Source of the DNA: Opitutales bacterium
GTDB lineage: Bacteria; Verrucomicrobiota; Verrucomicrobiia; Opitutales; JABSRG01
Assembly: GCA_028280845.1 (NCBI GenBank)
Contig: JANQKZ010000012.1
Coordinates: 1-33,521, forward strand
Direction of reading: 5' to 3'
DNA length: 33,521 nucleotides
Every line of letters begins with the position of its first letter. The first letter of the stretch is position 1. Positions 30,569 to 33,521 of this stretch are shown piece by piece. The notes under the pieces are model-generated. The model saw only the letters and a list, made by a program, of their open reading frames with translations, was not told the DNA's origin and did no database searches. Both the position numbers and the translations under genes were made by a program.

Positions 30569-30722
<154 letters not shown>

Positions 30723-30728
30723 CCCCCG

Positions 30729-31520
30729 CTACACAAAAATCACGCCTTCACAGAATTTGTGGATCCGACCACCGATATCGACGCGGTCCCCGCGAAGCCG
30801 GCATTGGAGGAGTCCGGTTCGTTCCGATGCCTGAAAGGCGACCAACTCCGTTTTTCCTAACTGCTCCGCCCAATAAGGAATGAGCGAGCAATGGATGGAT
30901 CCGGTAACCGGGTCCTCCGGGATCCCATAGCTCGGAGCGAAATACCTGGAGACAAAATCATAGTTCGGGTCATCGCTCGCGCCGGTCACGATCAACCCCC
31001 GGGAGCCAAGGGTTGAGATTAAATCGAGGTCGGGCTTCAGGCTCCTCACATCGGATTCACTCATCAAAACGGCCAATACATCCATCCCCGTGAATACGGC
31101 TTTCATAGAATCCCCAAGCCAGGCCTTCAACGCCTCATGACCCGCTAACGGATCTACCGGCAACACCGGGAAATCCAGAGAGAATCGATCCTCGGAAAGG
31201 CGATTTACGGTTAAGGGGCCGCTCCGCGATGAAAAACACACGGAATCCTTTGCTGGATCTGCCTGAAGGAGATGTCCTCCGGTTGCCAGGGTGGCATGAC
31301 CGCAAAGGTCTACCTCCCCACCCGGGGTAAACCACCGTAGCTGGTAGGCTTCGCCCTCCGTATGGGGAATATAAAACGCCGTTTCACTATGCTTGTTTTC
31401 CGCCGCAATATTCAACAGCAGGTCATCACTCAACCATTCCTCCAGCGGGCACACACCTGCCGGGTTTCCCATAAAGGGTCCCTCCGCAAACGCATCATAA
31501 ACGTGGTAAGGTATCTTCAT
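30729..31520 (-). CDS. PhzF-family isomerase/epimerase-like protein
   Basis: The 263-residue protein has the duplicated diaminopimelate-epimerase-like fold of PhzF. The family's catalytic glutamate is E46 in NKHSETAFY, and the other hallmarks are present: [28 protein letters not shown] and [14 protein letters not shown]. PhzF isomerises a dihydro-hydroxyanthranilate in phenazine synthesis, but most homologues have other, unknown substrates, often aromatic or enamine-like compounds. ATG at 31520 follows GGAATGGG, a modest ribosome-binding site. It is on the same strand as the DJ-1-like and methyltransferase genes; gaps of 155 and 108 bp leave a shared transcript possible but unproven. Confidence 0.85.
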
Positions 31521-31675
31521 ATCCCATTCCTTTTCTTAGGCGTATTCGTTGTTGTAATCGTATTGGAACAAAGAGACCGCTTATCCGATGCCGGAGAGCA
31601 AGGGAATTTCGAGTCACGACCCCGGAATGCTCCTTCGTCATAGTATCCCCTCACATTCATTCTCAATTTCACGGT

Positions 31676-32272
31676 TCACTCTGATGATGTCTCCGGGCTC
31701 CATCGGTACTCCATCACCTCCGCCTGCTGCCGGGCAGCCCCCACCCCATGCAGCTCGGCGATCAGAGCAAAGGCCGCATCAATCCCGGCTGAAACCCCGG
31801 CAGAAGTCAGGACCTGGCCATCCCGAACGAACCGGACATCGCGCAGCCAGGTCGTTTCCGGGTAGGCCTGCTCCAGTCGATCGATTGCCGCGTAATGCGA
31901 TGTCGCTCGCAATCCGGACAATAACCCGGCCTGCGCCAGCACATGGGCTCCCGTGCAAATGGAGAACAGCATGGCTCCTCCCTCCGCGAGTCGCCGCAGG
32001 TGAGCCAGGACGGATTCATTCGAGACAACCCGAAGGGTACCCCGCCCGCCTGGAATCACCACCAGATCGGCCGAGACGACAGACTCCAAGGGCGTTTCCG
32101 CTCTCAGCCCGAGCCCGGTTCTCGCTTCGACCTCCAGGGACTTCTGGGCCGCGGCAAATACCCGGGGAAACCGGGGACGCCCCTGGTCATCCAGGCATTC
32201 GCCCAGCACCTCGAGCGGCCCGGCAAAGTCGAGCACCTCAACTTGATCAAAGAGCAGAAAGACGGTATTCAT
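31676..32272 (-). CDS. DJ-1/PfpI-family protein, isonitrile-hydratase-like
   Basis: The ATG at 32272 (MNTVFLLFDQVEVLDFAGPLEVL) is the natural start and gives 198 residues; the frame upstream is unrelated. The DJ-1/PfpI nucleophile elbow is SICTGAHVLAQAGLL with Cys106, and the conserved Glu is E21. DLVVIPGG and LSGLRATSHYAAIDRL and SAGVSAGIDAAFALI place it nearest to the isonitrile hydratase and ThiJ-like transcription-factor domain group; it has no AraC DNA-binding part. Actual substrates in this group vary widely, so the activity is not assigned. It lies between the methyltransferase and PhzF-like genes. Confidence 0.82.
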   Translation of the reverse strand: MNTVFLLFDQVEVLDFAGPLEVLGECLDDQGRPRFPRVFAAAQKSLEVEARTGLGLRAETPLESVVSADLVVIPGGRGTLRVVSNESVLAHLRRLAEGGAMLFSICTGAHVLAQAGLLSGLRATSHYAAIDRLEQAYPETTWLRDVRFVRDGQVLTSAGVSAGIDAAFALIAELHGVGAARQQAEVMEYRWSPETSSE

Positions 32273-32380
32273 AGAGAGGCATCTAGGGAATAGTGTCAGG
32301 GAATCGCGTGGCAACGAAAAGATTCTTACCCTGGTCACCAGACACCAGGCATTAGGCACACACCGGAAATGGACCGCTAT

Positions 32381-33178
32381 CTACTTCCGATGCAGGATCA
32401 ACATCTGATTACTGCCCTTCAAATACTGGAAGGGAATCTCGACCACCTCGGCGCTGATTCCGTCGTCATTGAACAGGTCAATACGCAGCCGCTGGAGATG
32501 CTTATAGGGTCTGGCGTTGTGCCCCAGCAACGGGTAGAGGCGCACCTCTCCACCATGGTTCAAATCACACACCCGTGCCATTTCCCTGCACGACTCCAAA
32601 ATGAAGGCATAATCAAAATGAGCGGCATAGAGAAAGAGGTAGTGGTGGTTGAGCACCAGGTCGAAGGAAGCGTCATTGAAAGGTAAATTGGGCAACTGCC
32701 CCGAAAAGTAGCGCCCCTGGGCCAGTCCCGCGGAGAAATCATGACTGAAGTGCTGGATGGCGGCTTCCCGCAACTCCCGCACAAAGCCAAAATCCTTCAT
32801 GTGGTCAAAATTATAGAGCTCCGGATGCGCCATGGTCTTCTCCAGCACGATTTTCATATCTGCCTCGGCCAGGTGTGCCAGGGCTTCCACCCCCTGGTCA
32901 TACATTGGATCCAGGGCTTTCGCCTGAATCCCTTTGCGGATGGCTTCGGCGGTGAATGAAGAGGCCCGGGCATGACAATCCAGCACCCGGCGTCCCGTGA
33001 TCTGGTCGGCCTGAAAATTGAAGAACCATTCGTATTCAGCAAAGGTCCGGCCATAAAAGGCAATGCGATCAAAGCGGATCTCTCCTTTTCCTTTGGGTGG
33101 AGAATCGGGGTGGACCAGGTGGTCGGAGTCTGGGCTCATCGTGTCAAGCATGTGGGTGGGTTGATTCATGTCTAACAT
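32381..33178 (-). CDS. Class I SAM-dependent methyltransferase-like protein
   Basis: The 265-residue protein matches a Rossmann-type methyltransferase: RRVLDCHARASSFTAEAI at residues 63-80 (motif I), an acidic motif in ALDPMYD near 89-94 and LPFNDASFDLVLNHHYLFLY near 163-182. Motif I is unusual: in the close family it reads LDxxxGxSSF, and here glycine is replaced in CHARASSF. The substrate is unknown. Two ATG codons 9 bp apart begin the frame. The gene starts 25 nt after a terminator hairpin that forms part of a leader-peptide attenuator, so its expression is probably controlled by aromatic aminoacyl-tRNA supply. Confidence 0.7.
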   Translation of the reverse strand: MLDMNQPTHMLDTMSPDSDHLVHPDSPPKGKGEIRFDRIAFYGRTFAEYEWFFNFQADQITGRRVLDCHARASSFTAEAIRKGIQAKALDPMYDQGVEALAHLAEADMKIVLEKTMAHPELYNFDHMKDFGFVRELREAAIQHFSHDFSAGLAQGRYFSGQLPNLPFNDASFDLVLNHHYLFLYAAHFDYAFILESCREMARVCDLNHGGEVRLYPLLGHNARPYKHLQRLRIDLFNDDGISAEVVEIPFQYLKGSNQMLILHRK

Positions 33179-33202: not shown

Positions 33203-33239
33203 AAAAATAAAAAAGCCGGCTCTTTCAGGAGACCGGCTT
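33203..33239 (-). terminator. Attenuator terminator hairpin upstream of the methyltransferase gene
   Basis: On the minus strand AAGCCGG (33239-33233) pairs with CCGGCTT (33219-33213), extended inward by CTC/GAG past one bulged base, with a 6-nt loop, and is followed by TTTTATTTTT. Its 5' arm overlaps the 3' half of a second possible helix: CGCCAAGCC (33243-33235) is complementary to GGCTTGGCG (33298-33290) inside the leader ORF. The two foldings exclude each other, as in Trp attenuators. Confidence 0.8.
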
Positions 33240-33282
33240 GGCGCAAAAGGTTAAGGGCTGGAATGCCACTCAGGGCTGACCT

Positions 33283-33384
33283 TTACCATCGCCAAGCCAT
33301 ATTCCAACGCCACCAGTAAGCTGCAACTGCGTCGGACATGGCGCAGGTAAAGCGAAAAAAGAAAAACTCAGCGTTAGTGGGCAT
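33283..33384 (-). CDS. Aromatic-residue leader peptide of an attenuator
   Basis: A 33-codon frame starts with ATG at 33384 (MPTNAE, then FFFFRF), has a second in-frame ATG at 33339, and ends YWWRWNMAWRW followed by TAA. It holds five Phe, five Trp (all within the last ten codons) and one Tyr. TTGGGAA before the first ATG is a weak ribosome-binding site; none is seen before the second. A ribosome stalled at the first two Trp codons (33315-33310) would leave the antiterminator arm at 33298-33290 free, while one at the stop codon would cover it. This is the logic of trpL-type control by charged tRNA-Trp, with possible input from tRNA-Phe. No product function apart from translation is expected. 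Confidence 0.72.
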   Translation of the reverse strand: MPTNAEFFFFRFTCAMSDAVAAYWWRWNMAWRW

Positions 33385-33444
33385 TTCCCAAGCAATGCAC
33401 CGCCCCACTCCATTGTGCAAGAAAATTTTCCAGACTCCGCTCGC

Positions 33445-33521
33445 CGACCTCCAACTTCCGCCTCCCGACCACCGACTCCCGATCTCCGACCTCAGACCTC
33501 CGACCTCCGACCTCCGATCAC
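33445..33521. repeat. Second heptanucleotide tandem array, running off the window
   Basis: Eleven consecutive 7-bp units of the type CGACCTC (variants CGATCTC, CGACTCC, CGACCAC and others) run to the last base and likely continue. The array is more diverged than the one at 30569-30722 and has a different unit, but the same length and pyrimidine-rich CG-starting pattern. Confidence 0.75.

Follow-up and report, generated by a model that had tools for sequence, protein, structure and literature searches.

A putative tryptophan-codon attenuator preceding a single predicted methyltransferase gene in the Opitutales

We conclude that a predicted class I methyltransferase (MTase) gene of an Opitutales bacterium is very probably controlled by a ribosome-mediated transcription attenuator that has Trp control codons and is devoted to this one gene. 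The gene lies near the end of the window, by which we mean the whole stretch of DNA that was analysed (33,521 nucleotides of contig JANQKZ010000012.1). In the trp and phe operon attenuators of Proteobacteria, a leader peptide is combined with mutually exclusive hairpins, and the initial annotation had proposed such an arrangement here from the letters of the window. That reading is now strongly supported by conserved Trp codons, by covariation, by the mutual exclusivity of the two helices and by the folding expected in both ribosome states. The parts named in the initial annotation, a 33-codon ORF on the minus strand, a perfect 9-nt complement between 33298-33290 and 33243-33235 and a terminator with a U-tract following the leader stop (33239-33203), were all recovered and are listed in Table 1. 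The two hairpins had been described as mutually exclusive, and this holds both in the window and in the alignment of relatives: five bases (33239-33235), corresponding to five alignment columns, are used by both helices, so that the antiterminator and the terminator exclude each other. The hairpin escaped a simple terminator scan on account of the bulged U in its stem. In the window no Rfam family, including Trp_leader, matched above its gathering score, and at a relaxed threshold the only hit was a sub-threshold suhB match over the terminator.

Table 1. Features of the leader and of the gene that follows it (window coordinates).
Feature	Position	Strand	Details and basis
Promoter-like element (putative)	33392..33420	-	TTGCAC (33420-33415), 17-nt spacer, CATTGC (33397-33392)
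Leader ORF MPTNAEFFFFRFTCAMSDAVAAYWWRWNMAWRW	33384-33283 including TAA	-	33 codons plus TAA; ORF listing
Control Trp codons	-6 = 33315-33313; -5 = 33312-33310	-	leader codon counts in 34 genomes
Further TGG codons in leader ORF	33306-33304, 33294-33292, 33288-33286	-	
Leader stop codon TAA	33285-33283	-	
Antiterminator 5' arm GGCUUGGCG, within leader ORF	33290..33298	-	covaries with 33243-33235 in relatives
Antiterminator 3' arm CGCCAAGCC	33235..33243	-	33239-33235 common to terminator 5' arm
Intrinsic terminator	33203..33239	-	stem AAGCCGG-U-CUC / GAG-CCGGCUU (33239-33213), then U-rich tract UUUUUUAUUUUU to 33203
Class I SAM-dependent methyltransferase-like gene (predicted)	32381..33178	-	265 aa, one Trp; ORF, fold, family profile

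The closest MTase relatives of the window protein are only about 40% identical to it, and conservation upstream of their genes is therefore informative. A profile search of 373 genomes of the order found the MTase in 51, and in 34 of these the same layout precedes it: an ORF with Trp codons, an antiterminator arm inside this ORF, a terminator with a U-tract and then the MTase gene. These 34 genomes span three families, the home family (f1), f13 and f21, and a scan of named genomes identified f13 as the Opitutaceae of the Verrucomicrobiota. The suspicion that the host belongs to the PVC group is thus supported, since the Opitutaceae are in the same order as the window genome and carry the same leader. 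The comparison of orthologous leaders that had been suggested as a check was carried out, and both the Trp codons and the complementary segments have been kept.

Leader codons were numbered from the codon that opens the antiterminator 5' arm. With this numbering, Trp occupies position -5 in 27 of the 34 leaders, -4 in 21 and -6 in 9; every leader (34/34) has at least one Trp codon between -7 and -1, with one placed 3-6 codons ahead of the arm in all 34, and the distance from Trp codon to arm is nearly fixed. The background at codons -25 to -9 is a single Trp in 564 codons of the same leaders. Some genomes of one genus have just one Trp codon left before the arm. Upstream of the control codons the peptide varies freely across the 34 leaders. 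The initial annotation had remarked on the dual Phe and Trp content of the leader, and dual sensing of the two is not supported: the upstream leader codons of the 34 genomes contain 23 Phe, none of them conserved in position, and because Phe lacks a positional pattern like that of Trp, the FFFFRF in the window leader is incidental.

These counts bear on the idea that the leader encodes an arrest peptide, a nascent chain of the TnaC or Erm kind whose ligand is free Trp, an antibiotic or some other small molecule and which so responds to something other than scarcity of Trp-tRNA. An MTase behind a leader peptide does resemble the inducible rRNA methyltransferases, as in the tylosin-induced yxjB gene, where the source, in outline, describes leader-peptide control of an rRNA methyltransferase gene (PMC6851288). 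There, as proposed here, expression of a methyltransferase gene depends on ribosome stalling at a leader peptide. In the yxjB type as so outlined, however, an antibiotic triggers the stalling, whereas the conserved Trp codons of the present leader point to Trp-tRNA. Moreover, the enzyme has a class I fold for which neither fold nor family profile gave a link to any rRNA methyltransferase family. An arrest peptide might also account for an Arg that is invariant at position +2 among the 34 leaders, but this codon lies within the base-paired arm, where RNA pairing can explain its conservation, and conservation is confined to the Trp codons that immediately precede the arm, the peptide upstream of them being variable. 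We consider an arrest peptide very unlikely and retain the reading in which the Trp codons are sensed as codons.

The downstream end of the promoter-like element lies 7 nt before the leader ATG, and G000 and about a dozen Opitutaceae genomes have a TTGC(A/C/G)-N17-CATCA(A/C)-like pair whose end is 5-9 nt ahead of the leader start codon (ATG or GTG). A start could be assigned in 33 leaders, and none of these has a Shine-Dalgarno sequence in the usual place; one genome (G134) was left out of this count, having no start codon in the sequence examined. The position of the promoter-like element together with the lack of a Shine-Dalgarno sequence suggests that the leader ORF is probably leaderless or nearly so, with transcription starting just before the ATG. 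The trpL of Sinorhizobium meliloti is leaderless (PMC7298713), and the window leader would resemble it in this respect.

If the antiterminator is real, each leader should be best served by its own partner arm. The arms were anchored independently, by the codon frame on one side and by the terminator on the other, and the 3' arms were then permuted among genomes. The mean score for pairing with the own 3' arm was 21.7, compared with 16.2 for permuted arms, and none of 100,000 permutations reached as high a value (34 genomes). In the antiterminator helix 87.3% of cells are paired, with 21 double-change cells against 6.6 in shuffled sets (0/500), and in slid registers the pairing falls to 25-47%. 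For the terminator, 97.7% of stem cells are paired in the 34 genomes, with 42 double-change cells against 7.1. The helix sets behind the values of 87.3% and 97.7% consist of concatenated blocks with constant linkers, which leaves the counts unaffected; a MAFFT alignment of contiguous sequence gave 87.0% paired cells for the antiterminator and 17 double-change cells against 6.0 (0/500). Examples of covarying antiterminator arms are GGCUUGGCG/CGCCAAGCC, GGCUCGGCG/CGCCGAGCC, AGGUUCGGCG/UGCCGAACCU, AGGCUCGAC/GUCGAGCCU and CGGCUCU/AGAGCCG.

A covariance model built from 26 leaders scored more than 55 bits at 44 of the 46 named Opitutia loci, a set that shares some genomes with the 34 above, and gave no match at archaeal MTase homologs or at those of the leaderless clade. 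Each of 25 carrier genomes has one strong match, located at the MTase gene, and in 384 genomes of the class every match below an E-value of 1e-7 is at the MTase gene. Other genes under the same leader were considered and discarded: the matches inspected below about 39 bits were ordinary gene-end terminators. A leader of this kind is absent before trpE in 26 genomes (the home genome and the 25 carriers). On the MTase tree the leader requires a single change (support 87/72), the leaderless relatives falling outside, and it therefore arose once on this tree.

Two further explanations may be weighed against these data. In the first, the terminator belongs to the upstream gene, the small ORF is accidental or a truncated frame and the MTase has its own promoter after 33203. 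The terminator is indeed of the intrinsic type, and the upstream gene is out of view because the contig stops at 33521. Against this explanation stand the spacing of the Trp codons, the conserved start region and the way in which ORF and terminator arm covary across 34 genomes, together with the single-copy link with the MTase gene, and we regard it as exceedingly improbable, though an additional promoter may lie between the terminator and the gene. In the second, the main action is in trans, exerted by the short terminated RNA or by the leader peptide as with rnTrpL and peTrpL of Sinorhizobium, and control of the MTase is secondary. The similar leaderless start and Trp codons of S. meliloti trpL (PMC7298713) would fit such a role, but in every case the element lies in cis ahead of the MTase gene and nowhere else, and attenuation in cis explains the covariation and the Trp spacing. 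A primary action in trans is accordingly judged highly unlikely, though a supplementary one may occur, and we continue with attenuation in cis.

Folding of the RNA agrees with two alternative states. For the window RNA, minimum-energy and centroid predictions both give the antiterminator as long as the arm is free, and the terminator once it is masked. Among the 34 genomes the antiterminator formed in 30 partial transcripts and the terminator in all 34 masked transcripts; the exceptions, in which the partial transcript lacks the antiterminator in this register, are G049, G311, G329 and G369, from two genera. When the complete transcript is folded, the terminator has the lowest energy in 26 of the 34 genomes, and antitermination there must therefore rely on the order of folding during transcription. 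Attenuators in general depend on folding during transcription.

From these elements the following sequence of events may be proposed. RNA polymerase would start just before the leader ATG and a ribosome would follow on the leader ORF. With plentiful Trp-tRNA, this ribosome would reach the stop codon at 33285-33283 and cover the arm at 33298-33290, whereupon the segment from 33239 would fold as the terminator and transcription would end near 33203. With Trp-tRNA in short supply, the ribosome would instead pause while its A site holds the Trp codon 33312-33310. The leading edge of a ribosome lies about 16 nt from the first base in the P site. When the A site is occupied by codon -5, this standard footprint ends beside the arm's first base; a ribosome that has reached the stop codon overlies the arm. 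In the window the leading edge of the stalled ribosome would be about one nucleotide before 33298, leaving the arm free to pair with 33243-33235, to remove the 5' arm of the terminator and so to allow readthrough and synthesis of a nearly Trp-free MTase. Readthrough into the MTase gene at low Trp-tRNA, as first proposed in the initial annotation, is thus consistent with the geometry and with both folding states.

The window protein is a predicted class I SAM-dependent methyltransferase. Its structure model has a pLDDT of 87; all 1000 of 1000 aligned chains had Z of at least 5, methyltransferases being most of the matches listed, and the best match was 2pxx (Z 12.8, rmsd 3.2, 172 residues). No specific family stands out in the structural comparison, which gives the general class I methyltransferase fold only, and the protein shows no close tie to a named enzyme. 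Methyltransf_11 was matched weakly by 38 of 44 family members (E up to 0.01), the window protein taken alone being below the Pfam cut-off, and a sequence search of the PDB with the MTase yielded no informative match. Similarly, a scan of named genomes with the window protein alone found nothing and one with the family alignment found homologs. Two of these (L166, L167), in Methanobacteriaceae archaea, are about 40% identical to the Opitutaceae MTase and have no leader, which suggests transfer of the MTase between domains. The MTase is not known to have a Trp-related function.

Leader-bearing MTases contain 0.22 Trp per 100 residues, many having none at all, and leaderless relatives contain 1.03, a comparison that represents one clade and one evolutionary change and is unreplicated. 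The two archaeal homologs have 2-3 Trp each. This depletion would fit a protein that is made during Trp starvation. Two unusual loci were seen in the family. In L012 (G001, from the same family as the window genome) an in-frame TAG lies near the end of the MTase and the leader is intact, which may reflect a sequencing error or early decay. At L068 and L199 (G211) a Trp-codon leader, LWWIHELARRWSNGEK, is kept before an MTase gene with an apparently broken N-terminal frame.

We attempted to deduce the role of the MTase from its neighbours and abandoned this approach, as the neighbours vary between clades. In the window the MTase is followed downstream by genes of the DJ-1/PfpI and PhzF families (30732-32275, minus strand). 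There is no clear terminator directly 3' of the MTase in the window, and the two genes might be co-transcribed with it; the order MTase, DJ-1/PfpI, PhzF is unconserved among relatives. In four Opitutaceae (L076, L078, L080 and L081, in G355, G333, G371 and G223) an ORF of roughly 110 residues overlaps the end of the MTase and is likely to be its operon partner; we take it to resemble an antibiotic-biosynthesis-type monooxygenase. The window also contains intergenic tandem arrays of heptamers, CCGACCT x10.6 (33444-33517) and ATCCCGC x22 (30569-30722). CCGACCT-like copies occur at many other places and at contig ends of the same genome, and repeats of this type are probably the reason that the contig ends where it does.

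It is instructive to compare this element with known systems. With the trp operon attenuators of Proteobacteria (E. coli trpL-trpE, S. meliloti trpL-trpE(G)) it shares a short ORF with tandem Trp codons and mutually exclusive antiterminator and intrinsic terminator. It differs from them in phylum, in its target, which is an MTase gene rather than trp genes, and in placing the antiterminator arm within the leader ORF, where the ribosome itself would cover it. In contrast to the four-segment attenuator of E. coli, it has no conserved protector (1:2) hairpin. The initial annotation had reported no dedicated helix of this sort, and the wider comparison agrees: an imperfect candidate is present in the window alone, and pairing across the 34 genomes is not above that of shuffled controls (mean z -0.08). 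Candidate Trp attenuators in Actinobacteria, as outlined in their source, likewise combine a leader containing Trp codons with alternative hairpins, and one of them precedes trpS2, which encodes a tryptophanyl-tRNA synthetase, in Streptomyces avermitilis (PMC1262725). A Trp attenuator can therefore serve a gene outside Trp synthesis, but the target there is within Trp usage, the phylum is unrelated and no methyltransferase is a target among the candidates so outlined (PMC1262725). In the literature that we searched, we found no leader-peptide attenuation for Verrucomicrobia or Opitutaceae and no Trp attenuator on a methyltransferase gene.

These results extend ribosome-mediated attenuation, by comparative evidence, to the Verrucomicrobiota and to a target without a known link to Trp. 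With its antiterminator arm in the leader ORF and no protector, the element offers a compact, minimal attenuator for comparison, and an uncharacterised enzyme family gains a concrete physiological cue. In the genomes sampled there is a Trp switch on the MTase and none on trpE, which implies that the cell treats the MTase as a product for times of Trp-tRNA shortage; the enzyme may thus serve Trp limitation. It is conceivable, if rather doubtful, that the loop is closed, with the MTase acting on the machinery that decodes Trp (tRNA-Trp or the ribosome, for example) or removing a Trp mimic that blocks charging, while its own leader reads out the decoding of Trp codons. If this were so, it would constitute a dedicated response to Trp starvation outside Trp synthesis, transport or charging. 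Such switches normally control Trp synthesis, and the pattern described here points to an as yet unrecognized response to Trp starvation.
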